The notes beneath the pieces were generated by a model. It was given only the letters and a program-made list of their open reading frames with translations. It made no database searches and was not told the origin of the DNA. Positions 17,571 to 33,660 of a stretch of DNA of 64,000 nucleotides are shown one piece after another. Source of the DNA: Citrifermentans bremense (GTDB lineage Bacteria; Desulfobacterota; Desulfuromonadia; Geobacterales; Geobacteraceae); assembly GCF_014218275.1 (NCBI RefSeq), contig NZ_AP023213.1:2830001-2894000 (forward strand), in the 5' to 3' direction. Made by a program: the position numbers and the translations under genes. Each line of letters begins with the position of its first letter. The first letter of the stretch is position 1.

Positions 17571-17591
17571 CCTTTGTCAGCACATTGCCCG

Positions 17592-17615: not shown

Positions 17616-17625
17616 AATGGCCGCG

Positions 17626-17653
17626 AAAAAGGGAACAGCCGGGCCGTTCCCTT
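17626..17653 (-). terminator. rho-independent terminator after modE
   Basis: AAGGGAAC with inner CC pairs with GTTCCCTT across a short loop; T5 follows on the minus strand, 11 bases beyond the modE stop. Confidence 0.85.
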
Positions 17654-17663
17654 CTTCGCGCGA

Positions 17664-18479
17664 CTAGCTCACGCCCAAGATGACACTGGAGGCCTTGAAG
17701 AGTGTGCAGGCATGCCCCCCAACCTTGAGACCCAGGTTTTGGGAGCTTCCGTGCGTGATGACGGCGCTGATGGTGTTGCCGCCCCCCACTTCGACATCGA
17801 CCTCGGTGGAGACAGGCCCCTCGATGATTTTGGCGACCGTGCCGCACATGACGTTGCGGGCGCTGATCTTCGCGTCGTGCAGGTCGCTCCCCACCATCAC
17901 CGAGCTGGCCTTGATGATGGCGTAGGCGCTTGCGCCCTCTTTGAGGGCAAGGTTCTCGACGGCTGCGTTGGTGACCACCGCAATAAGCGGGGCGCCGCCG
18001 CCGGTAAGTGAAAGGGCGACCTCAGAGTTGACGGCACCCTTGGTGATCTTCGTTACGGTTCCTGCCAGGACGTTACGGGCACTTACTTTCATGGATATCC
18101 TCCTCAAAAGCTGGTAGAGGCTTTGGGTGTCCCCCAGCCTCACCTCAAGATTCTCCAGGAATTTCCTGTGTTCTTCCTGGAGTACGCCGTACTGCCTAAC
18201 CACCTCTTTGCCATATCCGGTGAGGGTAGTGCCACCCCCACCCTTCCCCCCGGTCACCCGCTCTACCAGCGGCTGATCGGCGAGGTTGTTGATCATGTTG
18301 ACCAGGTCCCAGGCGTTCTTGTAGCTGATGCCGACCGCCTTGGCCGCCTTGGTGATTGAACCGACCTCGTCGATACTCTTAAGAAGCGCGATCCGGTCAC
18401 CGCCCAGGAATTTCTGCTCGTCCTTTTGAAACCAAAGGGAACCGTCGAGTTCCATGCCCCCCTGCTTTTTACGGCTCAA
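17664..18479 (-). CDS. modE: molybdate/tungstate-responsive regulator ModE
   Basis: A 271-residue transcription factor. The N-terminal winged helix (about 18-115, SITKAAKAVGISYKNAWDLV) is the LysR-like ModE DNA-binding domain. Two C-terminal Mop domains follow: SARNVLAGTVTKITKGAVNS (about 132-151) and a second copy SARNVMCGTVAKIIEGPVST (about 203-222), which bind molybdate or tungstate. Two matching operators lie at 17592 and 18562, the second across its own promoter, which predicts autorepression and control of tupABC. Confidence 0.92.
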   Translation of the reverse strand: MSRKKQGGMELDGSLWFQKDEQKFLGGDRIALLKSIDEVGSITKAAKAVGISYKNAWDLVNMINNLADQPLVERVTGGKGGGGTTLTGYGKEVVRQYGVLQEEHRKFLENLEVRLGDTQSLYQLLRRISMKVSARNVLAGTVTKITKGAVNSEVALSLTGGGAPLIAVVTNAAVENLALKEGASAYAIIKASSVMVGSDLHDAKISARNVMCGTVAKIIEGPVSTEVDVEVGGGNTISAVITHGSSQNLGLKVGGHACTLFKASSVILGVS

Positions 18480-18721: not shown

Positions 18722-19510
18722 TCAGAGGTCGTCTTTTTGTGCCTGTACGGCGGAGAGGTATTCTGACCGATTCCAGGTGGTCATGCAGGAAGGTTTCTCC
18801 GGGTCGGGCTCGCAGAGGTAGATCTCGTCGCCGGGGTGTCCGGTGATGCGCATGCCGGCCGAGCGGAGCATCGCTTCGACCGCGGCATGGTTTGCGATCC
18901 ACCAGTTGGTGGGATCTCCTGCAAATCGCTCTTCTATGAAGGCCAGCTTCGGCCATCCCTTCTCAAGCAAGGCATCGCGCTCGTTGATCCAGAAGTCGGA
19001 CTGCCCCGCCACCTCGCGTCCTGGCATGGTGACGGTCTGGAAGAGCATCATCCCCGCCGTCTTCTGGGCCACGATGTCGAGCGCCAGCATGGGGTAGCGC
19101 AGGTGGTAGAAGACCCCCATGAAGAGCACCAGGTCGAATTTCCCGGTGAGGCGCGCCAGGTCGTAGACCTGCATCTGGCGGAAATCGACCAGCCCCTCCA
19201 GCCCGTACTGCCCTGCCGCCCAGCGCGCCTGGTCCAGGTAGTGCGAGTCGCAGTCGATGCCCAAGACCCGCGCCCCACGGCGCGCCAGCTCGAAGCTGTA
19301 GAAACCGGCGTTGCAGCCGATGTCGAGCGCGCTCCAGCCGGAAAGGTCGTCGGGGATGCTGGGAGCGATCTCGCGCCACTTGAAGCTGGGGAAATCCCCC
19401 AGGAAGTGGTCGGGCGCGGTTTCCCTCCCATCGGGGAGGTGCAGGTTGTGGAACCAGGGGGAAAGCTCCCTTATTTCATCGTCAATGGATCTCATTTTGG
19501 TCTCGGGCAT
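18722..19510 (-). CDS. class I SAM-dependent methyltransferase of the glycan cluster
   Basis: A 262-residue methyltransferase resembling the CmoB-like/TIGR04290-type group. The N-terminal pattern SPWFHNLHLPDG (about 17-28) and GDFPSFKW precede the SAM-binding motif ALDIGCNAGF (61-70); VLFMGVFYHLRYP follows. CmoB modifies tRNA, but this gene is last in a nine-gene glycan cluster, so a sugar or aglycone substrate is more likely (inference). An alternative start is Met6 (19495). Neither start has a strong ribosome-binding site. Confidence 0.8.
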   Translation of the reverse strand: MPETKMRSIDDEIRELSPWFHNLHLPDGRETAPDHFLGDFPSFKWREIAPSIPDDLSGWSALDIGCNAGFYSFELARRGARVLGIDCDSHYLDQARWAAGQYGLEGLVDFRQMQVYDLARLTGKFDLVLFMGVFYHLRYPMLALDIVAQKTAGMMLFQTVTMPGREVAGQSDFWINERDALLEKGWPKLAFIEERFAGDPTNWWIANHAAVEAMLRSAGMRITGHPGDEIYLCEPDPEKPSCMTTWNRSEYLSAVQAQKDDL

Positions 19511-19599
19511 ACCTTGGCACCGTCCATTTCATCAAATGATGCAGCTGACATGTTCACTTCGCCGCCTTGCTGCCCAGTTTCCCTTCGCGCCTCAACAGA

Positions 19600-20655
19600 T
19601 CACCTGGAGGTCAGATACTCCTCGAGTTCCTCGGCGCGGCAGGCGGCGGAATGGGAGCGGAGCACCCTTTGGCGGGCGCGCTCGCCGATGGCCCGGCGCT
19701 CATCCTCGGGGAAGCGCTGCAGGATGCGGAGCATCTGCTGATAGTCGAAAGCGAGCAGGATCTCTTCGCCCGGTAGGAAGAACTGATCCAGGCCGGGCCA
19801 ATGGTCGCTCACCACCGGCACCGCGCAGGATGCGGCCTCGAAAAGCCTGACGCTCGGCGAATAGCCTGCCAGGAGCATCTGCTTCCGGGTGAGGTTCAGG
19901 GTGAAGCGCTGGGAGCTGTAAAACTCGCTGTGGCACTCGGGAGGGAGGTGCTCGATGCGGTGCGTGTTTTCGGTCCAGGCGACGTCGGCGGGGTACTGCG
20001 CGCCGGCGACCGCGAAGCGCCCTTTTTTCCAGGAGCGCGCCGGCCTGATCAAGAGCTCCTCCAGGCCGGGCTGCCGGTCCGGGCTGTAGGTCCCCAGATA
20101 CCCCAGGTCCCAGCGCGGCGTGACCGGCATCGGGTAGTGCACCAGAGGGTCGACCGAGCAGTATAGGGCGCGGGCGGCCGGGGAGCCGTACTCGCGTTCG
20201 ATCTGGTCCAAGGTTGGGCCGCCGGTGAAGGAGAGGTAGAGGTCGTAGTGCGGGACCAGCTCCCGGTTCAGGTACTTGCACTCACCCCTGGCCAGGGACG
20301 CGAGGGTGACCGGGGTGTCGATGTCGTAGAACGCGGTGATCCCCTTGGCGTTCTTCGTCACCCACTTACCCACCTCGATCCCCTGGTGCACGTAGGAGCC
20401 GACGATGACGCAGTCGGCATCGCAGATTTCCGGCCCGTACTCGCCCAAGAGCCTTTCCAGGGAGTCGTAGATTATCGTGCTGCAGAAGGAGGGCTCGGGG
20501 AGGTCGCGGTTGGAGGCGTACCACTTCGCGTCGCGCTCCAGAAACAGCACCTCATGGCCGCGCCGGTCCATCTCGCGCAGAAGCCCGCGGTAGGTGGTGG
20601 CATGACCGTTGCCCCAGGACGAGGTGATCGAAAGGCCGAAGATCACGATCTTCAT
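19600..20655 (-). CDS. CgeB-like glycosyltransferase family protein (copy 3)
   Basis: A 351-residue protein of the CgeB/DUF3880 group, GT-B-like proteins that include the Bacillus spore-surface protein CgeB. It begins MKIVIFGLSITSSWGNGHAT, has YLGTYSPDRQPGLEELL in the middle, and a C-terminal donor-site-like segment RLFEAASCAVPVVSDHWPGL followed by FFLPGEEILLAFD. The ATG overlaps the stop of the preceding paralogue (ATGA), which fixes the start at 20655. Donor and acceptor are unknown. Confidence 0.82.
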   Translation of the reverse strand: MKIVIFGLSITSSWGNGHATTYRGLLREMDRRGHEVLFLERDAKWYASNRDLPEPSFCSTIIYDSLERLLGEYGPEICDADCVIVGSYVHQGIEVGKWVTKNAKGITAFYDIDTPVTLASLARGECKYLNRELVPHYDLYLSFTGGPTLDQIEREYGSPAARALYCSVDPLVHYPMPVTPRWDLGYLGTYSPDRQPGLEELLIRPARSWKKGRFAVAGAQYPADVAWTENTHRIEHLPPECHSEFYSSQRFTLNLTRKQMLLAGYSPSVRLFEAASCAVPVVSDHWPGLDQFFLPGEEILLAFDYQQMLRILQRFPEDERRAIGERARQRVLRSHSAACRAEELEEYLTSR

Positions 20656-21761
20656 AACGTCCCCCCCGTAGATGGCTTTCCCTTGGCTCCGGCAGAGAAG
20701 ATCTCCTGGAACTGCCGGGCGCGGTGGGCGTAGGTGTGCTGCGCCCGCACCCGGGTGAGGGCCCGCGACCCGACCGCCGCGGCGAGCGACGGGGTGAGCC
20801 GGTCCATGATCTCGGCGACCTCCTCGCCGCTTGCCGCGACGTAGATCTCGCGCTCCGGCTCGAAGAACTGCTCCACCCCTTCCCACTGGTCCGTGATCAT
20901 GCAGGCCCCGGCGCCGGCGGCCTCGAAGACGCGGGTCGCTGGCGAGAAGCCGTTTCTCGCCATGCCGTCGCGGCTCACGTTGAGCACCGCCATCGGGCTG
21001 CAGTTGAAGGCGTTGTGGTCGCAGGTCCCCAGGTGCCCCAGGTACTTCACGTTGCCGGACCTCTCCTTGTCGTCCCAGCCGCTTCCGGCAAGAAGGAAGC
21101 TGCGCTCCGGCAGGCGCTTGGCCACGGCGAGGAAGAATTCCTCCACCCGCCGCTCCCGGTCCGGGAGCCGGTTCCCCAGAAACGAAAGGTCCGCCTCCAG
21201 TCGCGGCTCGGAATGCACCGGGTAATGGGTTTCGGGATCGAGCGCGTTGTAGATGGGGATGCAGGTGCGCGCGCCGAAGCTTGTGTAGCGGCGGACGATG
21301 GGGTCGCCACCGCCATAGGTGAGGACGAGGTCGTACTGGGGGATCAGCGCGCGGAAGGGATCATTGGTGTTGGCGGCGATACGCTCCAGGGTGGCAGGGG
21401 CGTCGACGTCCCAGAAGATCACCTGGGTCCCCTCGTTCTTGAGCCGCAGCACCTCGCGCTCCAGCAGTTCATCGAAGACGCCGACGCCGCTTGCCTTGAT
21501 GACCAGGTCTGATCCCTTGGCAGCCTCCAGCGAACGCATCACCCCTGACTCGGTAGCCGGGTAGACCACCACCTTCGCCCAGTCGGGGTCATCCATATCC
21601 CGGTGCGACTGCCGCTCGTAGGCGTCCGGTTCGTAGAAGACGATGCGGTGCCCCAGGCCCGCCAGGGCCCGGACCATGCCGCGGTAATAGGTGGCGGCGC
21701 CGTTCCAGTAGGCTGAAACGAGGCTCGAGGCGAAAAAGGCGATGGAAAGAGGTGCGCCCAT
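20652..21761 (-). CDS. CgeB-like glycosyltransferase family protein (copy 2)
   Basis: A 369-residue paralogue of its two neighbours. It begins LSIAFFASSLVSAYWNGAAT, carries DLSFLGNRLPDRERRVEEFF and ends with RVFEAAGAGACMITDQWEG followed by FFEPEREIYVA, the same layout as copy 3. Start at 21761 is chosen for AAAAGGA just upstream; an in-frame Met 11 codons earlier would run into the intergenic space. Its stop overlaps the next start by 4 bases. Confidence 0.82.
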   Translation of the reverse strand: MGAPLSIAFFASSLVSAYWNGAATYYRGMVRALAGLGHRIVFYEPDAYERQSHRDMDDPDWAKVVVYPATESGVMRSLEAAKGSDLVIKASGVGVFDELLEREVLRLKNEGTQVIFWDVDAPATLERIAANTNDPFRALIPQYDLVLTYGGGDPIVRRYTSFGARTCIPIYNALDPETHYPVHSEPRLEADLSFLGNRLPDRERRVEEFFLAVAKRLPERSFLLAGSGWDDKERSGNVKYLGHLGTCDHNAFNCSPMAVLNVSRDGMARNGFSPATRVFEAAGAGACMITDQWEGVEQFFEPEREIYVAASGEEVAEIMDRLTPSLAAAVGSRALTRVRAQHTYAHRARQFQEIFSAGAKGKPSTGGTL

Positions 21762-21790
21762 GGTCGTTCCTTTTCTGGTTCGTGGTCCGT

Positions 21791-22888
21791 TCAAGCGTTA
21801 AGCCCCAACTCGCTGCAGATCTGCAAAAGCTCATCTATACGGTGGCCGCAGGTGTGCCGCGCCAGGATGGTGCCACGGCCGTGGCTGGCCAGGCGTCCGG
21901 CGCGGGCGGGGTCATCCAGAAGAAGGCGCATCTGCCGCTGCATCTGCTCTCCGCTGTCGGCGAAGATGAAGTCGTCGTCGGGGGAAAAGAGCTCGTCGCA
22001 GTCGTCCCAGGGTGCCGAGATGAGGGGGATGCCGCAGGCCAGTGCCTCGAAGGGGCGGATGGTCGGAATTCCCGGGAGCGCGGTGACGTAAGGGCGGCGC
22101 GGGATGTGGACGGTGAGCCGGAAGCGGCTGAAGACCCTGGGAACCTCGAAGTTGGGGAGCCAGCCGCCGTAGGTGATCCCCGCCTCCTGCAGCAGTTTCA
22201 AAGCGTGTTTAGGATAGCGGACGCCGTAGACCGTCGCCTTCAGCCCCAGCCGCCGCACCGGTTCCACCAAGAACTCGCGGATCTCCTTGCTCCTCTCGTC
22301 GTCCCCCCAGTTGCCGATCCACACCACGTCCCCCGACTTCTGCGCGGCCCCCACAGGTTTGAAGACCCTGACGTCCGCGGCCTCGTGCCAGATCCAGACC
22401 CGCTCCGCCCAGCTGTTTTGCAGGTATATCTCCCTGATCTTGCCGCCGTAGGCCAGGACCCCGTCGAACCCGGAGAGATCGTAGGCGTCCATGGCCTTCG
22501 TGTTGGTGACGCTGCGGTGATGGGTGTCGTGAAAGAGCAGGCGGTAGTTCCCCTTGGATTTTCGGTGCTCCCCGACCCTTTGCACCAGCTCGTGCTCGTT
22601 CCATTCGTGCACGATGACCAGGTCCGCCCCGGAGAGCGCCTGGTCGAGGTACAGCTGCTTGAGCTCGTAAGGTATCCCCGAAAGACCCGGATACACCTCC
22701 TTGAAGCGCCGCAGGGCATCTACCCGTTTTTCACGCAGAAGGTTCTCGTAGCTCCAGCCGTTCTTCGGCTCGTAGACGCGGACCTCGTGCCCCCTGTGGC
22801 GCAGCTCGGTCGCGACGCCGCGCAGGAAGTGGGCGTTGCCGTGGTTCCAGTCCGAAACCAGGGAGTGATAAAACATGACTACACGCAT
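21791..22888 (-). CDS. CgeB-like glycosyltransferase family protein (copy 1)
   Basis: A 365-residue protein of the same type, somewhat more diverged. It begins MRVVMFYHSLVSDWNHGNAH, has VVWIGNWGDDERSKEIREFL and the donor-site-like IRPFEALACGIPLISAPWDD followed by LFSPDDDFIFAD. GAGGA precedes the ATG at 22888. A 30-base gap separates it from copy 2. Three tandem relatives with different middle regions suggest three successive sugar transfers, though this is inference. Confidence 0.82.
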   Translation of the reverse strand: MRVVMFYHSLVSDWNHGNAHFLRGVATELRHRGHEVRVYEPKNGWSYENLLREKRVDALRRFKEVYPGLSGIPYELKQLYLDQALSGADLVIVHEWNEHELVQRVGEHRKSKGNYRLLFHDTHHRSVTNTKAMDAYDLSGFDGVLAYGGKIREIYLQNSWAERVWIWHEAADVRVFKPVGAAQKSGDVVWIGNWGDDERSKEIREFLVEPVRRLGLKATVYGVRYPKHALKLLQEAGITYGGWLPNFEVPRVFSRFRLTVHIPRRPYVTALPGIPTIRPFEALACGIPLISAPWDDCDELFSPDDDFIFADSGEQMQRQMRLLLDDPARAGRLASHGRGTILARHTCGHRIDELLQICSELGLNA

Positions 22889-22899
22889 CGGGCAATCCT

Positions 22900-22947
22900 C
22901 TGGTTGTCCCACTCCCCAGCGGGGGAGGGTCGGGATGGGGGAACGGT
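22900..22947. repeat. GC-rich palindromic repeat inside the glycan operon
   Basis: CCCACTCCCCAGCGGGGGAGGG can fold into a hairpin (CTCCCC/GGGGAG). It lies in the 59-base gap between the GT4 gene and CgeB copy 1. Its effect on transcription is unknown; no T-run follows on the minus strand. Confidence 0.45.
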
Positions 22948-24075
22948 TCAGCTCTCCCGGCACAACTGGCGGTACAGCGCCAGGTATCCCGCCACCATCT
23001 TGGCCGCCGTGAATTTGCGGCTTTGCGCCAGCGCCTTGTTTCCCAGGCTCTCCTGCCTCGGGCGGTCCGTGCAGAGCCGGCAGAGTTCCTCCTGGAGCCG
23101 GTCCGGGGAGTTCGGGTCGACGAAGATGGCGGCGCCGTCCCAGAGTTCGCGCAGGCTGGGGATGTCGCCCAGCACCAGGGCGCATCCGGAGAGCGCCGCC
23201 TCCAGGACGGTAAGCCCGAAGGGCTCGTAGCGCGCGGGCAGCGCGTACACGGACGCCGCCGCGTACCAGGGGGCAAGTTCGTCCGAGGAAAGGAAACCGA
23301 GTCGGTTCACCCCCTCCATGGTCACGCTCCCCCCGCCGGGATGGTTGATCTCCCCCGCCACGTACACCGGCCAGGGGAGGTCGTAGGCGTTGCGCACCAG
23401 TGCGCCGATGTTCTTCGCCTCGTCCCACACCCGCCCAACCGACAGGATGAAGTCCTGCTTGTGTCCGGGGCGGAACCTGGTGCGGCTGCGGGCGTTGTGG
23501 ACCACCCTCCCCTCGGGAAGGGGGAGGTACAGCTTCTGGATGTTTTGGAGCATGGCGGCCGACGGGGCCGCAACGAGGTCGGCGGCGGCGAGCCCCTGAG
23601 CCACGCGCTCCCGGTACTTATGGTACCGGGACGGGAGTTCCTCCCGCCGCACCGCCTGCCACCAGGAAAGGAGACAGGAGTGCGCGACCACGAGGCAGGG
23701 GCTTTGCCAGGGGAGCGCGGCGTGCGCGTATCCGTTCAGGTGCACCAGGTCCGGGCGCAGTCGGTTTTCCAGCTCCAGGAGCCAGGCGCCGCTTTGCTCC
23801 ACGTCGGCCCAGGGGTCGTCCATCCACTCCAGCCGGTAACGGCTTTCATACAGGGTGACGTTCCCTTCGTCCGCCACCTCGCGGCGCTGCTCCTGGGAAA
23901 GGGGCTGCCCCATGGTGGCCAGGGCCACTTCCACCCCGAAGACGGAAAGGCCGCGCGCAAGCTCCAGCACGTAGGTCCAGACGCCGCCGATGGGATCGGC
24001 GGTCATCAGGACCAGTCGCGGCGGAACCGAGGCAGCGGCCTCGTCACACCCCTTGCTGCAATCCGAATCGGTCAT
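22948..24075 (-). CDS. GT4-type glycosyltransferase
   Basis: A 375-residue GT-B glycosyltransferase. The N-terminal acceptor domain begins LVLMTADPIGGVWTYVLELA (glycine-rich loop). The C-terminal donor domain has LSVGRVWDEAKN and the family E-x7-E motif PARYEPFGLTVLEAALSG (280-297), then DIPSLRELWDGAAIFVDP. Start at 24075 is preceded by GTAGGAGGAAAG. It retains the canonical nucleotide-sugar site, unlike the CgeB-like neighbours, and may add the first sugar (inference). Confidence 0.88.
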   Translation of the reverse strand: MTDSDCSKGCDEAAASVPPRLVLMTADPIGGVWTYVLELARGLSVFGVEVALATMGQPLSQEQRREVADEGNVTLYESRYRLEWMDDPWADVEQSGAWLLELENRLRPDLVHLNGYAHAALPWQSPCLVVAHSCLLSWWQAVRREELPSRYHKYRERVAQGLAAADLVAAPSAAMLQNIQKLYLPLPEGRVVHNARSRTRFRPGHKQDFILSVGRVWDEAKNIGALVRNAYDLPWPVYVAGEINHPGGGSVTMEGVNRLGFLSSDELAPWYAAASVYALPARYEPFGLTVLEAALSGCALVLGDIPSLRELWDGAAIFVDPNSPDRLQEELCRLCTDRPRQESLGNKALAQSRKFTAAKMVAGYLALYRQLCRES

Positions 24076-24102
24076 GGCTACTGCTTTCCTCCTACTTCTC
24101 CT

Positions 24103-24170
24103 CCACCCGGAGGGGGGACGGGCATGGGCGGTCCCCCTCCCGACCCTCCCCCTCCGGGGGCGGGAACTCA
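24103..24170. repeat. GC-rich palindromic repeat between oxidoreductase and GT4 genes
   Basis: Units CCCGGAGGGGGGACGGG and CCCCCTCCGGGGGCGGG lie in tandem, the second nearly identical to the copy at about 1808. They fill most of the 157-base gap between the two operon genes. Confidence 0.5.
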
Positions 24171-24232
24171 AGCTGCAGACTTCATTTTTTCACCAGCGAA
24201 GACCTTGGCGCCATCGCCACCGCTCCAGCCTG

Positions 24233-25234
24233 TTACCTGCCATAGGCCGCGTCCAAGACCGCCGCCACCTGGATCAGGTTCTCCGCTTGCGGGTCATAGC
24301 TCCCCGACCCGGCCCTCAACTGCCGCACCCACTCTACGGCGCACCTCCCCCCCCAGTCGTCCGGCGGGGTGGCGATGGTTTCGGTGTGGGTGCCGTGGAA
24401 GCGCTCGGCGACGAAGTCGTAGAAGGAACCCTGGACGTTCCTGAAGGCGACCCCACCCTGGGTCCCGTAGAAGCTCGACTCGATCACCGCGTCCCTCCCC
24501 GCGGAGACGTTCCAGGAGCAGGCCACCCGCACAGCGTGCCCGTTTCCCAATACGAGCGAGACGACGGCGTAGTCCTCAACCTTGCCCGATCCCCCCTTGA
24601 GCCTCTGCCCCCCGGAGAAGATCGAGCTGGAGACGCTGCGCACCTGCGGGTACCCGAAGAACCAGAGGGCAAGATCGACCAGGTGGCTCCCAAGGTCCAT
24701 GAGGCACCCGCCCCCCGAGAGTTCGGCGTCGTAGAACCAGGCCTTGTCCGGGCCGTAGGCGTTATGGAAGACGAGGTCGGCGGCGTAGACTTCGCCCAGT
24801 TCTCCCGAGCTGACCAGCTGATACATCTTCTGTATGGCGTCGGTAAAGCGGTAGGAGAAGTCGACGCCCAAAAGGCGGTTGGCGGCCCGGGCGGTGTTCA
24901 CCACCATCTGAGCTTCATAGGCGCTTCTGCCCAGGGGTTTCTGGCAAAAGACGGAGAGACCCGCCTCCAGTGCCCGTACCGCCTGCGAGCAGTGCCCGGC
25001 GCTGGGGGTGGCTATGACCACCGCGTCGAGCCCAAGCTCCAGTAGCGCGTCCAGCGATTCGACCACCGCGGCGCCGGGAGCGAGCTTTGCCGCCTCGGCG
25101 GCGTTTTCCCGGCAGACGTCGGCTATGGCGGCCACCTCGGCCTCTTTGCTGTCCAGTATCGCCTGCAGACGATGGCGACCGATCCAGCCGGTCCCCAAAA
25201 ACCCGATCCTTGGCAGTGCTTGCTTTTTCTTCAT
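24233..25234 (-). CDS. Gfo/Idh/MocA family oxidoreductase
   Basis: A 333-residue NAD(P)-dependent sugar dehydrogenase-type protein. The N-terminal Rossmann motif is GFLGTGWIGRH (11-21); CQKPLGRS stands where the family has its EKP motif with the catalytic Lys. The second domain has GGCLMDLGSHLVDLALWFFG with the Gly-His pair usual in the family. Members oxidise or isomerise sugar C-OH groups. Position in the glycan operon suggests action on a nucleotide-sugar or cyclitol; substrate unknown. Confidence 0.87.
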   Translation of the reverse strand: MKKKQALPRIGFLGTGWIGRHRLQAILDSKEAEVAAIADVCRENAAEAAKLAPGAAVVESLDALLELGLDAVVIATPSAGHCSQAVRALEAGLSVFCQKPLGRSAYEAQMVVNTARAANRLLGVDFSYRFTDAIQKMYQLVSSGELGEVYAADLVFHNAYGPDKAWFYDAELSGGGCLMDLGSHLVDLALWFFGYPQVRSVSSSIFSGGQRLKGGSGKVEDYAVVSLVLGNGHAVRVACSWNVSAGRDAVIESSFYGTQGGVAFRNVQGSFYDFVAERFHGTHTETIATPPDDWGGRCAVEWVRQLRAGSGSYDPQAENLIQVAAVLDAAYGR

Positions 25235-25247
25235 CGCTTCCCCTTTT

Positions 25248-26219
25248 TCAGTGATCGATGCGGATGATTCCCTTCAGGAAGCCGTCCGGCCGCTGGTCCA
25301 GCGCCCGGTACGCCTCCCCCAGATGCTCCAGCGCATAGGTGTGCGTGATCAGCTCTTCGAGGGCAAAAAGGCCGGCATCGACGGCCTCGATCCCGGCCAG
25401 CATCCCCTCCAGGTACACCTTCGGGTCCCGCTCATGGGCGTTGATGACGTCCACCCCCTTCCAGTTCCATAGCTGCACGTTCACCTGGCGCAGACCATCC
25501 TGGTGGAACCCCGCGATGATGATCTTCCCCCGCTCGCGCACCAGTTCGCCGGCCACGTCGAGGGGCCACTGGTGCCCGGTCGCCTCCATGACCCGGTCGC
25601 ACCCCTTTCCTGCAGTCAGCTCCCGTACCCGCTCCAGGACCTTCTGGTGATCGTCCAGCGGCACGACCTCAGAGGCGCCGCAGCGCCTGGCCAGCTCCAG
25701 CGCGTATCCGCGGCGCGACAGCGCCAGCACCCTCGCCCCCCGTGCCGCGGCCAGCGAAATGAAGATGGCCCCCAGGAACCCGACGCCGATCACCGCAACC
25801 GTCTGCCCCGGCTCGATGGAGCTGCGCCGAAAGACGTTCATGGCGCAGCCGAGCGGCTCGCCCGGAAAGGGGAATCCGTCCAAAGACGAGGGAATCGGCA
25901 CCAGCGCCTGTGCCTGCACCTTGTCGTACTGGGCGAAGGCGTTGTAGGAGAGAAAGGTCACCCGGTCACCGACACGCAGCCCCTCCACCCCCTCGCCCAG
26001 CTGGTGCACCCTCCCCCACCCCTCGTGCCCGGGAGAACCGGGCTTGGCCGGGTAGTCGAACCAGGATCTTCCCTGCCAAAGCGGGAGGTTCGAGGCGCAG
26101 ACGCCGCAACCCTCAACCCGCACCACGACTTCCCCCCTACCCGCCTCCGGACGCGCCACCTCTTCCACCCACGCTTTCCCCGGACCGGTGATCACCGCAG
26201 CCTTCATCACATCGCTCAT
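25248..26219 (-). CDS. MDR-family zinc-type alcohol dehydrogenase
   Basis: A 323-residue medium-chain dehydrogenase. GCGVCASN (about 36-43, catalytic Cys) and GHEGWG supply the usual catalytic zinc region; IGVGFLGA is the NAD(P) Rossmann motif. The four-Cys structural-zinc lobe of classic ADHs is missing. It starts one base into the stop of the fused epimerase gene (TGATG), so the two are translationally coupled; Met5 (26207) is an alternative start. It may work with the Gfo/Idh protein in making an unusual sugar (inference). Confidence 0.85.
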   Translation of the reverse strand: MSDVMKAAVITGPGKAWVEEVARPEAGRGEVVVRVEGCGVCASNLPLWQGRSWFDYPAKPGSPGHEGWGRVHQLGEGVEGLRVGDRVTFLSYNAFAQYDKVQAQALVPIPSSLDGFPFPGEPLGCAMNVFRRSSIEPGQTVAVIGVGFLGAIFISLAAARGARVLALSRRGYALELARRCGASEVVPLDDHQKVLERVRELTAGKGCDRVMEATGHQWPLDVAGELVRERGKIIIAGFHQDGLRQVNVQLWNWKGVDVINAHERDPKVYLEGMLAGIEAVDAGLFALEELITHTYALEHLGEAYRALDQRPDGFLKGIIRIDH

Positions 26220-28270
26220 CAGATCGCCTCCACCCCCGTTGCCGGGTACCTTTGCTTTTTGAAGCTCCCGGCGCGCGCCGGGTATTGCATGGTTTCAGTG
26301 AGCCAGTCGTACAGCCTGCGCACCCCCTCGGCCACCGAGTGCCGCGGCGTCCATCCGGTCGCCTTGCAGAACTTCCTGGTGTCGGAGACGTAATACCTCT
26401 GGTCGCCGGTGCGCCAGTCGTCGCGCAGGATGGAGGGGAGGTCGCCGTGCAGCTCGCGCAGGAGCTCCAAAAGCTCCAGGAGACTGATGGTGCGGGCAGG
26501 ACCGCCGCCGATGTTGAACGCCTCTCCCGCTATGCGCGGCATGATGTCACGCGCCCGGCACATAGCGTCAACCAGGTCCTCAACGAAGAGGAGGTCCCTG
26601 ATCTGGCAGCCGTCACCGTAGAGGGTGATCGGCTCCCCCTTGAGGGTCTGGATGGCGAAGTGCGCCACCCACCCCTGGTCCTCGGTGCCGTACTGGTGCG
26701 GGCCGTAGATGCAGCTCATCCGGAAGACCGCGGCCGCGATGCCGTAGCTGCGGGCGTAATCGAGGACGTACTGGTCGGCTGAACCCTTGGAGCAGCCGTA
26801 GGGGCTCAGGAAGTCGAGCGGGGTTCCTTCCCCCAGGCCGTGGGAGCGGAGCTGCGGGTCGAGCGGCTCGTAACGCACCCCGTTTTTCCGGACGCCGCAC
26901 CCCTCGATGGCCCCGTACACCTTGTTGGTGGAGGTGTAGAGGAGCGAGGGAGGGTTCTTCGCCTTGCGGATCGCCTCAAGGAGCGTGAAGGTCCCCTGGG
27001 CGTTAATGGCGAAATCGTTGGCAGGGTTGTCGATGCTGGTTGTGACGGCGACCTGGGCCGCGAAGTGGAAGACCTGCTTCGCCTCCCCTACCGCCTGCTC
27101 CAATAGGAACTGGTTGCGGGTGTCCCCTATCACCACCTGCAGCCTCTCGCCGCAGTTGTCCATGAGCCAGAGGAGGTTCTTCTCCACCCCTGCCCGGGAG
27201 AGGTTGTCATACAGGATCACCCTCTCCCCCTGCGCCACCAGGTGCTGCACCAGGTTGGTCCCGATGAAGCCGGCCCCGCCGGTGACGAGCACCGCCTTTT
27301 CCGTGCCGCCCCTTTCGACCCTGGCGGCGCTCCCGGCGCCGACCACCCGCTTCAGCGAGGAGAGCGTCTTCTCCTGGAGCAGGCGGTAGAGGAGCTTGGG
27401 CGTACCGTCCGCCTTCCTCAGGCCGAAGAAGTACTCGCGCTCGTCCAGGTGGTAGCGGTCCACCGCGGAGAGCGAAGGATCGAGGTCGTCGACGCCGTAC
27501 CAGTAGACCCGCTGCGCCGGGGCGCCTAGGAAGTCGAGGAACACCCTGGCCTGCTTGAACTCGTCGTGCTGCCAGGTGGAGAAACCCGCCTCGGTGACCC
27601 AGATCTCGCAGGCGCAGTGCCTCTTGTCGAGGATCTCCCGCACCATGGCGATGTTGCGATGCCACCCCTTCCAGGTGTAGTCGAAGATGTCCGGAAAGCC
27701 GTGGATCCCCACCACGTCGATGTAATCCATCACCCCCAGCTCGAACATCCGGCAGAGCCAGTGTCCGTCGATGGGGCTCATCCCGCCCAGGACGGTCTTC
27801 TTGCCGCGCTTTCTGGCCCAGTAGGCCGCCCCCCCGATCATCTCGCCGAAGGAGGTCCAGTGTGGGTCCAGGGTCCAGTCCCACTCGCTCAGGTTGTTCG
27901 GCTCGTTCCAGAGCTCTAGGTACTCGAAGTGCTCACCGAAGGAGGTGATGAAGAGATCGATGAAGTCGGCGTAATCCTTGGGATGACGCGGCGGTGACGA
28001 GGTTTTGGCCTCGATCCCGATCGAGGGGGGGGTGTACAGCACGCAAGGGAGGAGCTCCACCTCCTGCGCCAGCCGCGGGATGAGCCAGTCGTACCACTTC
28101 TTCCCCTCGCTGGTGTACCAGTCCGCCCAGGAGATCCCGGTCCTCAGGCTCTTGGCGCCGACGGCCTTCATGTCGGAGAGGACCCTCTCCACCCGTTCCC
28201 GCTCGCCCGGCCGGAACCACTCCACGATGCCGAAGGATCCCGGAACTGATTCGCTGCTGGCCCTTTTCAT
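26219..28270 (-). CDS. fusion protein: clan GH-A-like glycoside hydrolase domain plus NAD-dependent epimerase
   Basis: A 683-residue two-domain protein. Residues about 10-305 look like a (beta/alpha)8 glycoside hydrolase of clan GH-A: acid/base Glu123 in LELWNEPN and probable nucleophile Glu227 in WVTEAG. Residues about 325-683 are an extended SDR epimerase: GGAGFIG (331-337), TSTNKVYG, and catalytic Y491/K495 in YGCSK; VAVTTSIDNP and QYGTEDQGWVAHF resemble CDP-paratose 2-epimerases. There is no frameshift between them. The start at 28270 overlaps the upstream stop (ATGA). Neither substrate is known. An additional 230 codons open upstream are shadow sequence of the next gene. Confidence 0.85.
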   Translation of the reverse strand: MKRASSESVPGSFGIVEWFRPGERERVERVLSDMKAVGAKSLRTGISWADWYTSEGKKWYDWLIPRLAQEVELLPCVLYTPPSIGIEAKTSSPPRHPKDYADFIDLFITSFGEHFEYLELWNEPNNLSEWDWTLDPHWTSFGEMIGGAAYWARKRGKKTVLGGMSPIDGHWLCRMFELGVMDYIDVVGIHGFPDIFDYTWKGWHRNIAMVREILDKRHCACEIWVTEAGFSTWQHDEFKQARVFLDFLGAPAQRVYWYGVDDLDPSLSAVDRYHLDEREYFFGLRKADGTPKLLYRLLQEKTLSSLKRVVGAGSAARVERGGTEKAVLVTGGAGFIGTNLVQHLVAQGERVILYDNLSRAGVEKNLLWLMDNCGERLQVVIGDTRNQFLLEQAVGEAKQVFHFAAQVAVTTSIDNPANDFAINAQGTFTLLEAIRKAKNPPSLLYTSTNKVYGAIEGCGVRKNGVRYEPLDPQLRSHGLGEGTPLDFLSPYGCSKGSADQYVLDYARSYGIAAAVFRMSCIYGPHQYGTEDQGWVAHFAIQTLKGEPITLYGDGCQIRDLLFVEDLVDAMCRARDIMPRIAGEAFNIGGGPARTISLLELLELLRELHGDLPSILRDDWRTGDQRYYVSDTRKFCKATGWTPRHSVAEGVRRLYDWLTETMQYPARAGSFKKQRYPATGVEAI

Positions 28271-29388
28271 AGCGTCAACCCCCGCTGGGTGAGCTCGGCA
28301 TGCGCCTCGGAAACCCGGTCGATGGCGACCTCCCCTTCCAGCCACCCCGCCAGCTCGGCGAGCCCCTCGTCGAAGGAGACCCTCGGGGCGTAGCCGAGTG
28401 CGGAGCGGGCGGAACTTATGTCCGCGAAGCAGTGCCGGATGTCTCCGGCCCGGTAGCTGCCGGTGATCTCCGGCTCGATCTCCTCGCAGTTGAGCACCCG
28501 GCGGAAACGCTTGAGCACCTCGAGGACGCTGATGTTGGCCCCGCTCCCTATGTTGAAGAGCTGCTCCTGCTGCTGGTCCACCTGGAGCGCGAGCCGGCAG
28601 GCCGTCACCACGTCGTGCACGCTGACGAAGTCCCGCTGCTGCAGCCCGTCCTCGTAGATGCGCGGCGGGTTCCCGTTCATGAGCCTGGAGGCGAAGATGG
28701 CGAGCACACCGGTGTAGGGGTTGGAGAGCGCCTGCCTGGTACCGTAGACGTTGAAAAAGCGCAGGGCGATCACCGGTATGTGGTAGCAGCTCCCCACGAT
28801 CAGCGCCATCCGCTCCTGGTCGTACTTGGAAAGCGCGTAGACCGATGCCAGCGACGGCGACTTGTCCTCGGGCGTCGCGACCGGGCGCAGCGGCTCGCTC
28901 CTGCGGTTGAAAGGCTCCCAGCGCCCCCGCTGCAACTGCTCCAGGGGGCGACTCACGTCGTCGTAGCAAAGGCCGTCGGCGTCGCGGTAGCGCCCTTCGC
29001 CGTAGATACTCATGCTGGAGGCGACAATCAGCTTGCGGTGCCCCTTGGCGTGGGCCATCGCTTCAAGGAGCACGGCGGTGCCGCAGTTGTTGACCGAGGT
29101 GTACTGCTCGATCTCATACATGCTCTGCCCGACCCCGACCATGGCGGCCAGGTGGAATACCGCTTCTGTCCCCGAAAGCGCCCTTTGCACCGCGGCCTGG
29201 TCCCGCACGTCCCCTTTGATCAGCTCAACCTCAGGATCCAGGTACCTCGGACGGTTTCCCTCCGGCCCGTGCACTTGCGGCACCAGGCTGTCCAGAACCC
29301 GGACGCGGTAACCGTGACGAAGAAGCTCATCCGCCAAGTGAGATCCAATGAATCCGGCTCCCCCTGTGATTAGAACGCTCCCTGCCAT
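28267..29388 (-). CDS. NAD-dependent epimerase/dehydratase (UDP-glucose 4-epimerase-like)
   Basis: A 373-residue extended short-chain dehydrogenase acting on nucleotide sugars. Rossmann motif GGAGFIGSH (9-17), FHLAAMVGVGQS, SSMSIYG and a YALSK active-site motif, then RFFNVYGTRQALSNPYTG, which is typical of UDP-sugar 4-epimerases/decarboxylases. First gene of the nine-gene operon, with a promoter about 90 bases upstream. A roughly 45-residue insertion around residues 140-185 is longer than in standard GalE. Exact product sugar cannot be read from sequence. Confidence 0.88.
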   Translation of the reverse strand: MAGSVLITGGAGFIGSHLADELLRHGYRVRVLDSLVPQVHGPEGNRPRYLDPEVELIKGDVRDQAAVQRALSGTEAVFHLAAMVGVGQSMYEIEQYTSVNNCGTAVLLEAMAHAKGHRKLIVASSMSIYGEGRYRDADGLCYDDVSRPLEQLQRGRWEPFNRRSEPLRPVATPEDKSPSLASVYALSKYDQERMALIVGSCYHIPVIALRFFNVYGTRQALSNPYTGVLAIFASRLMNGNPPRIYEDGLQQRDFVSVHDVVTACRLALQVDQQQEQLFNIGSGANISVLEVLKRFRRVLNCEEIEPEITGSYRAGDIRHCFADISSARSALGYAPRVSFDEGLAELAGWLEGEVAIDRVSEAHAELTQRGLTL

Positions 29389-29743
29389 AAGGCCCTCCTT
29401 GGGTTGACGAGATCTGCTGCTGCGCGATTATCTAATTAACACAAAGTTAATCCTTTTAAATTAACAAATGTCAATACTAGCAGTGCCATTTTTCATGTCA
29501 AACGTTTTTTGCAGCTGTTAATGGAAAATCACCCTGTAACTTGGCAGACATCCGCGCTGCCCCCCTCTTTCCGGTCCCGGTTTTCCACTTCGCCGCCAAT
29601 GAGTCGAGGCCCCCCCATGAGGCTCATGCTTAAGTCTCAGATGAACCTCGGCATGAAGCTGCTGCCGCAGTTTTAAAACGGACGAACTATGTTATTTTTA
29701 GAGCCTGTTAATTTTACTGAAGGAGAGCCGAACGGAGGTGGCG
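29389..29743. other. 355-base divergent region between glycan operon and treZ
   Basis: No gene. It is AT-rich near 29425-29530 compared with its neighbours and holds the operon promoter and a TTAAC-N5-GTTAA palindrome. The treZ-proximal half (29540-29735) shows no clear promoter pair by eye. Confidence 0.6.
29436..29501 (-). promoter_or_regulatory. promoter of the nine-gene glycan operon with operator-like palindrome
   Basis: Minus-strand TTGACA (29496-29501), 16-base spacer, TAGTAT (29474-29479) preceded by TGC as in extended -10 elements. Downstream of the expected start site is TTAAC-ACAAA-GTTAA in plus-strand order (29436-29450), a possible repressor site. Confidence 0.55.
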
Positions 29744-31624
29744 ATGACCGAGCTGCAAAGACGACTACCCATCGGAGCGGAGATTGTCCCGGATGGTGTC
29801 CACTTCCGTGTCTGGGCACCGGCGCACCGGAAGGTGGAGGTAGTGCTGGAGGGGGGAGTCGGCCAGGGAAGCTCCGTGGAGCTGGAATCGGAGGAGGAAG
29901 GCTTCTTCGCCGGGGTCGCAAGCCAGGCGCGGGTGGGGTCCTTGTACCGCTTCCGGCTGGACCAGGGGGAAAACCTGCACCCCGACCCAGCCTCGCGCTT
30001 CCAGCCCGACGGCCCGCACGGCCCTTCCCGGGTGGTCGACCCCTCCAGGTACAGGTGGAGCGACGGCGACTGGCCCGGCATCCTGCGCGAGGGGCACGTG
30101 ATCTACGAAATGCACCTGGGGACCTACACCAGGGAGGGGAGTTGGCGGGCCGCGGCGGAACAGCTCCAGGAACTGAAAGACTTGGGGATCACGCTGGTAG
30201 AGGTGATGCCGGTGGCGGACTTTCCCGGCAGGTTCGGCTGGGGGTACGACGGGGTGAACCACTTCGCCCCTTCGAGGCTCTACGGCGAGCCCGACGACAT
30301 GCGCAGTTTCGTGGACCAGGCGCACCGCCTGGGACTTGGGGTGTTGCTGGACGTGGTCTACAACCACTTCGGCCCGGAAGGGAACTACCTGGCCCAGTTC
30401 TCTCAGTACTATTACGCCGAGGAGGAGGGCGAGTGGGGCAAGGCGATGAACTTCGACGGCAGGCGCAGCCGCCCGGTACGGGAGTTCTTCGCCGCCAACG
30501 CAGGGTATTGGATCGACGAGTTCCACCTGGACGGCCTGCGCTTCGACGCCACCCACGCGATTCACGACGACTCCCCCGTCCATGTCCTTGGGGAGATCAC
30601 CGAAATGGCGCGGGCGGCCTCCGGCAAGCGCAGCATCCTCCTGGTGGCGGAGAACGAGAACCAGGACGCCCGCTGCCTGCGCCCGAAGGAATCTGGCGGC
30701 TTCGGCATGGACGCCGTCTGGAACGACGACTTCCACCACAGCGCCTACGTGGCGCTCACCGGCTACCACGACGCCTACTATTCCGAGTACTTCGGCACTC
30801 CGCAGGAGCTGATCTCGACGGCCAAGTGGGGCTACCTGTACCAGGGGCAGTTCTACTTCTGGCAGGGGAAAAGGCGCGGCTCCCCCACCATCGGCGTGAG
30901 CCCCTCCTGCTTCATCAACTACATCCAAAACCACGACCAGATAGGCAACTCGGCCTGGGGGATGAGGATCGACAGGCTCACCAACCCGGCGGCGCTCAGG
31001 ACCATGACCGCGCTCCTGATGCTCTCTCCGCAGACCCCGATGATCTTCCAGGGGCAGGAGTTCTCCGCCAGCTCACCTTTTCTCTACTTCGCGGACCTGA
31101 GCCAGGAGATATCGCAGGCGGTGCATTCCGGCCGCATAGAGTACCTGAAGCAGTTCACCAACATAGACGCCCCCGAGATCATCGACTCAATAGACAAGCC
31201 CTACGAGGTGGAGACCTTCGAACAGTCGCGGCTCCACCTGAAAGAGCGCGAGCGCCACGCAAAGACCTACGCCCTCTACCGCGATCTGATCCGGCTGCGG
31301 CGCGAGGACCCGGTCTTCAGCCGTGCCTATGCCTGCCACGTAGAGGGGGCGGTGCTTGGGACGAACGCCTTCCTGCTCCGCTACTTCCTGGAGGGTGACC
31401 AGCGCCTGCTCCTGATCAACCTTGGGCGCGAACTGCACCTGGTCCCCATCCCCGAGCCGATGCTGGCGCCGCCTGAGGGGTGCAACTGGGAGATCCTTTG
31501 GACCAGCGAGAAACTTGAGTTCGGCGGTTCCGGAACGCCCAAGCTCGACACGGAGAAGTTCTGGCGCATACAGGGGAACGCGGCGGTGGTGCTGATTCCG
31601 GTCCGCCAGGGAGAAGAGCCATGA
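29744..31624 (+). CDS. treZ: malto-oligosyltrehalose trehalohydrolase TreZ
   Basis: GH13 enzyme of 626 residues that releases trehalose from the end of maltooligosyltrehalose. An N-terminal E-set domain (about 1-100, DGVHFRVWAPAHRKVEVVLE) precedes the barrel. The GH13 triad is visible: D268 (GLRFDATHA), E303 (LVAENEN), D398 (NHDQIGN). The ATG at 29744 is chosen because GGAGG ends 5 bases upstream; a GTG at 29738 sits inside it. Coupled to the debranching enzyme by an ATGA overlap. The usual partner TreY is not in the window. Confidence 0.92.
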   Translation: MTELQRRLPIGAEIVPDGVHFRVWAPAHRKVEVVLEGGVGQGSSVELESEEEGFFAGVASQARVGSLYRFRLDQGENLHPDPASRFQPDGPHGPSRVVDPSRYRWSDGDWPGILREGHVIYEMHLGTYTREGSWRAAAEQLQELKDLGITLVEVMPVADFPGRFGWGYDGVNHFAPSRLYGEPDDMRSFVDQAHRLGLGVLLDVVYNHFGPEGNYLAQFSQYYYAEEEGEWGKAMNFDGRRSRPVREFFAANAGYWIDEFHLDGLRFDATHAIHDDSPVHVLGEITEMARAASGKRSILLVAENENQDARCLRPKESGGFGMDAVWNDDFHHSAYVALTGYHDAYYSEYFGTPQELISTAKWGYLYQGQFYFWQGKRRGSPTIGVSPSCFINYIQNHDQIGNSAWGMRIDRLTNPAALRTMTALLMLSPQTPMIFQGQEFSASSPFLYFADLSQEISQAVHSGRIEYLKQFTNIDAPEIIDSIDKPYEVETFEQSRLHLKERERHAKTYALYRDLIRLRREDPVFSRAYACHVEGAVLGTNAFLLRYFLEGDQRLLLINLGRELHLVPIPEPMLAPPEGCNWEILWTSEKLEFGGSGTPKLDTEKFWRIQGNAAVVLIPVRQGEEP

Positions 31625-33660
31625 CCACAGTGACACGAGACTTCCATTTCGACCGCCATGACGAAAAGGCGAAGACCCGGCAGCTCCTGGAACAGGAGTG
31701 GCTTCTCACCAACGGGCTGGGAGGCTACGCCTCCGGCACCGTCTGCGGCGCCCTCACCCGCCGCTATCACGGGCTCCTCATCGCGGCCTTCCCCTCGCCG
31801 CTTGGGCGCATGGTGATGCTGAACCGACTCACCGAGGCGATCCGCTTCCCCGATGGAAGCACGGTCCGCTTCGGCGGCGACCAAAGGGAGGGTGGGCGGC
31901 TCGACTTCGAGGGGATCGACTACCTGACCGGGTTCCGCCTGGAAGACGGGCTACCGGTCTGGCGCTACGAGATCATGGGAAGCGTGATCGAGAAGCAGCT
32001 GGTGATGGTGCACAAGCAGAACACGGTGCACCTGATCTACCGCCTTATCTCTGGCGAGCAGAAGGTGAGGCTCAAGCTGCAGCCCTACCTGCAGTTCCGC
32101 CCCCACGACGCCTCGGTGGACCAGGTGGTGGACGACCCGTACATGTTCACCGCGGTGCAAAACCGCTACCAGATCTCCATCGGGAGCCATTCGCCGCAGT
32201 TGAGGCTCGTCATCAACGGGGGACGCGGCAACTTCACCCTGGAGGAGAAGCAGAGCACAGACATCTTCTACGACGTTGAAAACGCCCGCGGCTACGACGC
32301 CCTGGGGACGCTTTGGACCGCCGGGTACTTCGCGGTCGACCTCGCGGCGGACCAGGACGCGGCGCTCACCGCTTCCACGGAGAGCTGGGAGACCCTGGCC
32401 GCGCTCCCCCCCGAGGCGGCGCTCGCCATGGAGCGCGAGCGGCGCAGGCTCCTTCTGGCAGCTGCAGACCCGAAAGCCAGACAGGGGCTCGCGGCAGAGC
32501 TCGTACTCGCCACGGACCAGTTCATCATTACCCCGGCCGGCAGGCACAAGGACAGCGTGCGCGCCCACGCCATGGGGGACGAGGTCTGCACCGTGATCGC
32601 CGGCTACCACTGGTTCACCGACTGGGGGCGCGACACCATGATCTCGCTGGAGGGGCTGACCCTCGCCACCGGCCGCCACATGGAGGCCGGCTGGATCCTG
32701 CGCACCTTCGCCCACTACGTGAGAAACGGGCTGATACCGAACCTCTTCCCGGAAGGTCACAACGACGGTCTCTACCACACCGCGGACGCGAGCCTCTGGT
32801 TCTTCCATGCCGTCAACCGCTACCTGAACCATACCGGCGACGACGCGACGCTGCAGATGATCATGCCCCAGCTGCGGCAGATCATCGACAAGCACCTCTC
32901 CGGCACCAGCTTCGGCATCGGGGTGGATCCAGGCGACGGCCTGCTCCGGCAGGGGGCCGAGGGGTACCAGCTCACCTGGATGGACGCGAAAGTCGGCGAC
33001 TGGGTGGTGACCCCGCGCCGCGGGAAGGCGGTGGAGCTGAACGCCCTGTGGTACAACGCGCTCAGGCTGATGCAGCAGTGGACCGAAAAGGACGACCCCG
33101 CCTATTCGCGCCAGCTGGGATCCTTCGCCGAGCAGACCTGCCGCTCCTTCAACAGCCGTTTCTGGTACCAGGAAGGGGGCTATCTTTACGACCTGGTGGA
33201 CGGCGAGCAGGGGGACGACGACGCCTGCCGCCCGAACCAGCTCTTCGCCATCTCCCTGGAGCACCCGGTGCTGGATCGGGAGAAGTGGTCCCCGGTGCTG
33301 GAGACGGTGCGCAAGCGCCTGCTCACCCCGGTCGGTCTGCGCACGCTCGCCCACGGGCACCCCGACTACAAGCCGACCTACCACGGCGACCTAAGGGCCC
33401 GTGACGCGGCCTACCATCAGGGGACCGTCTGGCCCTGGCTGATCGGCACCTTCATCGACTCATGGTTGAAGCTCTACCCCGACCAGGTCCCGACTGCGCA
33501 CAGCTTCCTGGACGGGCTGGCAAGCCAGATGAGCCAGCAGTGCATGGGCTCCATCAGCGAGATCTTCGACGCCGAAAAGCCCTACCTTCCCAAGGGGTGC
33601 ATCGCCCAGGCCTGGAGCGTGGCGGAGATGCTCAGGTGCTGGCTGAAGACCGCGCCCTGA
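31621..33660 (+). CDS. amylo-alpha-1,6-glucosidase (glycogen debranching enzyme)
   Basis: A 679-residue GH133-type debranching enzyme that removes alpha-1,6-linked glucose from glycogen. The N-terminal GDE domain (about 20-250) has EWLLTNGLGGYASGTVCG and RRYHGLL; the C-terminal (alpha/alpha)6 domain has the diagnostic WGRDTMISLEGL and later GTVWPWLIGTF. Its ATG overlaps the treZ stop. Together the two enzymes would feed on glycogen-like glucan; their divergence from the glycan operon may reflect shared sugar supply. Confidence 0.93.
   Translation: MTTVTRDFHFDRHDEKAKTRQLLEQEWLLTNGLGGYASGTVCGALTRRYHGLLIAAFPSPLGRMVMLNRLTEAIRFPDGSTVRFGGDQREGGRLDFEGIDYLTGFRLEDGLPVWRYEIMGSVIEKQLVMVHKQNTVHLIYRLISGEQKVRLKLQPYLQFRPHDASVDQVVDDPYMFTAVQNRYQISIGSHSPQLRLVINGGRGNFTLEEKQSTDIFYDVENARGYDALGTLWTAGYFAVDLAADQDAALTASTESWETLAALPPEAALAMERERRRLLLAAADPKARQGLAAELVLATDQFIITPAGRHKDSVRAHAMGDEVCTVIAGYHWFTDWGRDTMISLEGLTLATGRHMEAGWILRTFAHYVRNGLIPNLFPEGHNDGLYHTADASLWFFHAVNRYLNHTGDDATLQMIMPQLRQIIDKHLSGTSFGIGVDPGDGLLRQGAEGYQLTWMDAKVGDWVVTPRRGKAVELNALWYNALRLMQQWTEKDDPAYSRQLGSFAEQTCRSFNSRFWYQEGGYLYDLVDGEQGDDDACRPNQLFAISLEHPVLDREKWSPVLETVRKRLLTPVGLRTLAHGHPDYKPTYHGDLRARDAAYHQGTVWPWLIGTFIDSWLKLYPDQVPTAHSFLDGLASQMSQQCMGSISEIFDAEKPYLPKGCIAQAWSVAEMLRCWLKTAP

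Follow-up and report, generated by a model that had tools for sequence, protein, structure and literature searches.

Several components of the locus analysed here have described counterparts. The solved protein most similar to its glycoside hydrolase (GH) domain is PslG, which belongs to the exopolysaccharide (Psl) locus. Both forms of the domain are very distant from PslG. The one studied here is fused to an epimerase and lacks a signal-like N-terminus, and the stand-alone one of other phyla is circularly permuted. The epimerase half of the fusion protein shares the STNKVYG and SPYGCSKGAADQY blocks with the CDP-tyvelose (CDP-paratose) 2-epimerases 1orr and 9rl0, from which it differs by its fusion to the hydrolase. 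Among redox enzymes, the solved proteins closest to the Gfo/Idh/MocA oxidoreductase of the locus are the glycoside dehydrogenase DgpA (7xr9) and 6jw6, the kanamycin enzyme KanD2, but only at 137 and 125 bits; both rank ahead of inositol dehydrogenases. The cgeB gene of Bacillus subtilis, which gave the CgeB-like proteins their name, probably acts on a surface or spore-type protein. The methylmannose polysaccharide of mycobacteria is a cytosolic glycan whose cluster has a glycosyltransferase, a methyltransferase and a dedicated hydrolase; in these features the present operon may be likened to it.

Two NCBIfam models of the 'hypoth_equivalog' type, TIGR04290 and TIGR04295, show that curators had already noticed parts of the system, and in our reading the 'oligo' in the name of the latter, 'B12_rSAM_oligo', suggests that they suspected oligosaccharide synthesis. 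In the open-access literature, which leaves most subscription papers outside its scope, we recognised no paper treating the operon, no mention of TIGR04290 and no product assigned to the operon. The portions consulted of PMC3616915, PMC8877191, PMC3596328, PMC6599016 and PMC6180224 name no gene that could be tied to it, which, the comparison having been made without the Sinorhizobium meliloti locus tags of the operon, is no evidence of absence.

Gene content of the operon in Citrifermentans bremense

The window, a 64-kb stretch of the C. bremense genome, contains nine open reading frames (ORFs) running on one strand from position 29388 to 18722. The operon, its promoter and two divergent neighbours are as follows:

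29474..29501, minus strand: sigma-70-type promoter upstream (5') of gene 1, TTGACA-16-TAGTAT with TG before the second hexamer (motif scan and conservation)
28267..29388, minus strand: SDR1, NAD-dependent nucleotide-sugar 4-epimerase-type SDR, 373 aa (Pfam Epimerase; best PDB relatives UDP-glucose 4-epimerase-type chains, 4zrm at 193 bits)
26219..28270, minus strand: gene 2, GH-SDR2 fusion, 683 aa (GH-like residues 1 to ~320, SDR2 residues ~325-670)
25248..26219, minus strand: MDR, zinc-type medium-chain polyol dehydrogenase, 323 aa (Pfam; nearest solved relatives ketose reductase 1e3j and sorbitol dehydrogenase 1pl6)
24233..25234, minus strand: GFO, Gfo/Idh/MocA oxidoreductase, 333 aa (Pfam; nearest solved relative DgpA)
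22948..24075, minus strand: GT4 glycosyltransferase, 375 aa, start corrected (Pfam)
21791..22888, minus strand: CgeB-like glycosyltransferase 1 (CgeB1), 365 aa (PF13524, 131 bits)
20652..21761, minus strand: CgeB-like glycosyltransferase 2 (CgeB2), 369 aa (PF13524, 139 bits)
19600..20655, minus strand: CgeB-like glycosyltransferase 3 (CgeB3), 351 aa (PF13524, 125 bits)
18722..19510, minus strand: TIGR04290-family SAM methyltransferase, 262 aa (371 bits, cut-off 300)
29738..31624, plus strand: alpha-amylase-family enzyme, TreZ-like, outside the operon (39% to the annotated treZ in L104)
31621..33660, plus strand: glycogen debranching enzyme (GDE_C/GDE_N), outside the operon

The starts of GT4 (24075), CgeB1 (22888), CgeB2 (21761) and CgeB3 (20655) are the probable ones; the mechanical ORFs open earlier for GT4 (24171) and CgeB2 (21794). 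SDR1 overlaps gene 2 by 4 nt, gene 2 overlaps MDR by 1 nt and CgeB2 overlaps CgeB3 by 4 nt; with the starts used here, the remaining gaps between the genes measure 13, 157, 59, 29 and 89 nt. The ORFs and junctions thus agree with the initial annotation, which described nine same-strand genes with overlapping start and stop codons. Of its two epimerase-type proteins, one is indeed a free epimerase (SDR1), and the other is a hydrolase-epimerase fusion. Its gene list overlooked the hydrolase-like half of gene 2, probably because this half has no Pfam match of its own, and also the circularly permuted counterpart of this domain. The label CgeB stems from the same source; the family tested for the three genes is PF13524. 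A family search found no flippase, polymerase or exporter among the nine genes, as had been stated, and for the window the initial annotation was right to set the locus apart from standard O-antigen and capsule loci, the nine genes including no Wzx, Wzy or ABC exporter. By simple hydropathy, none of the nine proteins has an N-terminal signal-like stretch, and the only strongly hydrophobic stretch, from residue 141 of MDR on, lies in its nucleotide-binding part; all nine proteins look soluble.

The promoter match alone means little, a scan of both strands giving 2 sites versus 1.4 in shuffled sequences. The blocks TTTGACA and CTG(N)TA are, however, kept in all 19 of the 19 aligned Geobacteraceae upstream regions, and the nine genes are therefore likely to form one transcription unit. 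Two intergenic gaps (24076-24232 and 22889-22947) hold inverted copies of a GC-rich element, possibly a REP-like repeat, with arms of 27 nt that are 89% complementary. Beyond the operon, the translations of 14643-18479 (minus strand) point to ABC transporter genes and a ModE-like regulator, seemingly for tungstate or molybdate uptake and unrelated to the operon.

Among the NCBIfam models, GFO scores highest with inositol 2-dehydrogenase (104 bits; cut-off 355). The nearest solved relatives of the methyltransferase are tRNA-modifying CmoB-type enzymes (60 bits), so that methylation of a sugar is an assumption.

Conservation in Geobacteraceae and distant phyla

The methyltransferase scores above the TIGR04290 cut-off in 21 of the 58 genomes around the window, its own included. 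The other 20 constitute our set of Geobacteraceae relatives, and 18 of them have the full nine-gene order. The SDR1-to-MDR half is absent from the remaining two operons (L119 and L124), and one further genome (G004) has only a 37-residue methyltransferase match, which we read as an operon remnant; such half-deleted and remnant copies suggest loss of the operon. The full-length fusion protein is encoded in 19 of the 58 genomes, the window's own among them. With the operon in only part of these genomes, its distribution is patchy and it is dispensable.

For comparison across phyla, we used 80 distant loci in named genomes, the best of 581 listed matches to the fusion protein, a set that is biased toward the operon. 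Phylum labels were assigned by us from record titles, and for the order counts, SDR matches below 40%, MDR or GFO matches below 44% and CgeB matches below 49% identity were dropped; L031 falls outside the eight-gene count through these filters, though it has the full set. Among these best 80 of 581 loci, SDR1 and SDR2 are adjacent in 68, the order GT4-CgeB1-CgeB2-CgeB3 occurs in 52, the eight-gene order in 32 and all nine genes in 18, at roughly 40-65% identity across phyla. The 52 loci bear twelve phylum labels, one of them an unplaced 'Deltaproteobacteria' assembly. The glycosyltransferase block is absent from the locus stretch in the other 28 of the 80, some of which lie at contig ends and others of which are plain epimerase loci; MDR and GFO are missing or moved in some.

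The operon genes seem to be inherited together, as a unit. Over the 51 of the best 80 loci that have six core genes, gene-gene distances correlate at 0.59-0.80, and at 0.47-0.75 for cross-phylum pairs. The mean distance within phyla (0.402) is close to that between phyla (0.434), as repeated transfer of the whole unit would produce, and for 19 of the 51 the nearest neighbour comes from another phylum. The initial annotation had proposed a dedicated pathway and a search of complete genomes for conservation of the nine-gene order. The pathway proposal is supported: the order is kept in the Geobacteraceae and much of it in distant phyla, the gene distances are correlated, and one promoter is conserved.

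Glycoside hydrolase domain and its circular permutant

The glycoside-hydrolase-like half of gene 2 carries the pair WNEPN...TEAG. Its fold was assigned by sequence profiles only, by which it is predicted to be a PslG-like clan-A glycoside hydrolase. As in retaining enzymes of this clan, two glutamates of catalytic type are present, E123 (in WNEPN, after strand 4) and E227 (strand 7). PslG is the best solved relative of both the fused and the separate form, and both catalytic Glu positions align (PDB 5bx9/4zn2). The fused domain aligns with it colinearly (positions 11-292 to 29-326, E 7e-6), whereas the permutant aligns in swapped pieces (2-153 to 131-301 and 197-294 to 21-129; E 2e-7), the second of which is weak by itself (10 bits, i-E 3.2).

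In many other phyla, the same domain is encoded near the operon as a separate gene with its halves swapped: the WNEPN strand comes first in the protein, and the sequence that opens the fused form comes last. By sequence, the separate domain is a circular permutant of the fused one, as seen mainly from comparing the two forms with each other. Other arrangements include an unfused domain whose halves are not swapped (L070) and triple SDR1-GH-SDR2 fusions of 1,097 aa (P0039) and 1,076 aa (P0043), in both of which the two catalytic positions are Gly.

The SDR2 half, aligned over its full length, scores 374 bits with 1orr and 367 bits with 9rl0, versus 166 for the next chain, and has the STNKVYG and YGCSKGAADQY blocks of the family; it is therefore classified as a putative CDP-tyvelose 2-epimerase-like SDR. 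Because no CDP-glucose 4,6-dehydratase or paratose gene is found among the nine operon genes, its substrate is probably another NDP-sugar.

Of the 26 fused loci (from the best 80 of 581), 19 retain both catalytic glutamates, as do 112 of the 120 fused proteins (the best of 5,194 matches); at least one is lost in the other 7 loci and 8 proteins. The permutants keep both in 25 of 25 aligned sequences (of 27 permutants, two being cut by contig ends) and in 9 of 9 from a later set. In a survey of 29 whole genomes, picked by hydrolase state from the best 80 of 581 loci, a permutant is present in 6 of the 7 genomes with a broken fused hydrolase, versus 1 of the 12 with an intact one (Fisher p 0.0017, a test that ignores shared ancestry). 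The exceptions are L063, which has a broken copy only, and L026, which has two intact copies. All five non-actinobacterial genomes without the fused domain have a permutant, and the five actinobacterial operon genomes gave no match to the hydrolase. Apart from these exceptions, one candidate working hydrolase per genome thus appears to be the rule outside Actinomycetota.

The permutant is also tied to the pathway where the two are unlinked. Among 82 genomes of the order of Skermanella, a permutant occurs in 37 and CgeB2 in 39, all 37 being within the 39, and in several genomes the two genes lie hundreds of kilobases apart. G131 and G162 have CgeB2 without a permutant, only these two markers having been scored. 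As an element of the pathway explanation, we consider it fairly probable that in most lineages the pathway requires the hydrolase.

Accessory genes

Flanking genes of the 80 loci were accepted on homology support. A gene for a B12-binding radical-SAM protein, usually between SDR2 and GT4, was found in 15 of the best 80 of 581 loci, and neither MDR nor GFO occurs in the locus stretches of these 15. The protein of L102 belongs to TIGR04295 (715 bits). By its distribution, the radical-SAM protein takes the place of the two dehydrogenases in some lineages.

A second module recurs in many lineages, a gene row made up of the permutant, inositol-3-phosphate synthase (MIPS), a histidine phosphatase and a methyltransferase relative; in variants, a fourth CgeB-like gene and a nucleotidyltransferase gene are added or replace MIPS. 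MIPS lies near the operon in 11 of the best 80 of 581 loci and often accompanies the alphaproteobacterial versions. We infer that MIPS and the phosphatase supply myo-inositol. The idea of inositol as the universal acceptor rested on these neighbours and on weak IolG/IolM-like scores far below the cut-offs. It was rejected for Geobacteraceae: MIPS was found in 0 of the 58 genomes around the window, the own genome included, and the acceptor there is therefore something else, or inositol is imported.

UDP-xylose synthase (UXS) is encoded in 23 of the best 80 of 581 loci at 42% identity or more; as an operon marker it was discarded as uninformative, being present in 57 of the 58 relatives with or without the operon. 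An ABC transporter gene is near the operon in 6 of the best 80 of 581 loci by loose clustering and in 3 at 40% identity or more. Genes for a pyruvyltransferase and an F420H2-dehydrogenase-like protein are near the operon in 2 of the same best 80 and in L101; near the permutant, this pair stands in L101 (2115-4590), L026, L056 and L135. A small protein of ~94 aa without a Pfam match, s96, is found in 15 of the best 80 of 581 loci (for example L042:14465-14749), and in L035, L042, L058, L076 and L083 its gene separates the dehydrogenase genes from GT4; the gaps of the window operon, at most 157 nt, leave no room for it. In Bradyrhizobium (L087, L088, L093, L094, L098 and L102), a phosphopentomutase gene stands between the permuted hydrolase gene and SDR1.

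Stress-type promoters in Alphaproteobacteria

An EcfG-type motif, GGAAC-N15-18-(C/G)GTT, was noticed upstream of alphaproteobacterial copies and then tested, in this one form, on a freshly fetched set. A site 20-320 bp upstream of SDR1 was found in 11 of the 14 test operons and in all 3 Rhizobiaceae, of which two are sister species. The density of the motif in the loci tested, 0.168 per kb on both strands, gives ~0.025 expected sites per upstream interval of that size. In Bradyrhizobium, the site precedes MIPS in 6 of 6 cases and not SDR1, and separate MIPS modules have it in 3 of 4; no site was found for the alphaproteobacterial operons L049 and L149-L151. These counts point to membership in the EcfG general stress regulon for the alphaproteobacterial relatives only, a candidate promoter being present in most of those examined. 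This link was missed in the initial annotation.

The same motif form also occurs in RpoE2 promoters, according to the portion consulted of PMC6180224. In Sphingomonas, EcfG-dependent glycosyltransferase genes are listed (PMC6599016), and the portion of that source consulted establishes no tie between them and the operon genes. Near the S. meliloti copy lie, among others, genes for DUF1003, BON, DUF4142 and nutrient-deprivation proteins, and near the window operon those for TreZ-like, debranching and BON proteins; the TreZ-like and debranching genes adjoin the operon in 15 of the 20 Geobacteraceae relatives. Stress control in C. bremense is only suggested, because the window promoter is of the ordinary sigma-70 type.

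Pathway reconstruction and alternative explanations

We consider it fairly probable that the operon encodes a horizontally spread, dedicated cytosolic pathway for a small oligosaccharide or glycoside, which in many alphaproteobacterial lineages would belong to the general stress response. The best reading of the product class is a stress-linked, small or lipid-linked oligosaccharide. The initial annotation had offered a soluble or lipid-linked small glycoside, or else an altered cell-surface structure, either of which may apply. In the proposed scheme, (i) SDR1 and SDR2 would provide the special nucleotide sugars, epimerising them at C4 and C2, (ii) GT4 and the three CgeB-like enzymes would add one sugar each onto an acceptor (in MIPS-bearing lineages perhaps inositol), (iii) GFO and MDR, or elsewhere one TIGR04295-type B12 radical-SAM protein, would make a redox change on a product sugar, as the simple reading of these families has it, (iv) the methyltransferase would cap a hydroxyl, and (v) the hydrolase, by a retaining two-glutamate mechanism of clan A, would trim, transfer or recycle a glycosyl unit. 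The cytosolic site is proposed from hydropathy only.

Alternatively, the four glycosyltransferases could decorate the cell surface by adding a side chain or cap to an existing polysaccharide or lipid that a general transporter encoded elsewhere flips. The pyruvyltransferase, F420H2-dehydrogenase-like and ABC transporter genes near some relatives would fit this, as would the kinship of the hydrolase to PslG of an exopolysaccharide locus. We nevertheless hold surface decoration to be unlikely, though it deserves consideration: the core lacks a flippase, polymerase or export gene, its proteins look soluble, and the hydrolase, fused to an epimerase, shows no signal-like N-terminus. A target among surface or spore-type proteins, as the PF13524 matches of the three CgeB-like genes might imply, seems decidedly improbable, since no conserved acceptor protein is seen in the operon, the recurrent s96 is confined to 15 of the best 80 loci, and redox and methylation genes suit the tailoring of small molecules better.

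The loss of catalytic glutamates from some fused proteins raises the further idea that the fused hydrolase domain is no enzyme and serves the epimerase only as a scaffold or as a platform for binding sugars. The permutant present in nearly all genomes with a broken domain and in only one with an intact domain, together with the intact glutamates of every permutant aligned, makes this improbable. That the nine genes are a chance row of sugar genes without a common product is hardly credible: dehydrogenases that are missing or moved and the 28 of the best 80 loci lacking the glycosyltransferase block could be cited for it, but the gene order recurs in many phyla with correlated distances, and even unlinked parts, the permutant and CgeB2, are distributed alike.

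A more specific form of the dedicated-pathway reading is tentative, and we put it just short of an even chance. The product would belong to a new class of general-stress glycosides, an oligosaccharide that is cytosolic, methylated and redox-modified, with an inositol head in the MIPS-bearing lineages, and made by a unit spread through at least 11 phyla. Its near-obligatory hydrolase or transglycosylase would have been switched between a fused and a permuted stand-alone form, the replaced copy decaying within a working epimerase. The pair of hydrolase forms would then be a natural experiment in which a catalytic barrel was circularly permuted, the permuted form took over the function and the original decayed inside a fusion protein. 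A pathway of conserved order that spans Geobacteraceae, rhizobial plasmids and phyla as far apart as Actinomycetota and Bacteroidota, at ~40-65% identity, presumably yields something useful to many bacteria.

Plasmid-borne copies

CgeB2-like genes are present on 148 of 72,556 plasmid records. A phage origin was rejected, because a tblastn search of 50,697 phage records with CgeB2 gave no match at 1e-10. The operon lies in the annotated plasmid stretches L101-L104, in each of which one or both dehydrogenase genes are moved, lacking or unlisted, and also on L105. Positions 245375-250964 of pSymB of S. meliloti 1021 match the L101 operon at 99% DNA identity, and a genetic model is thus at hand.
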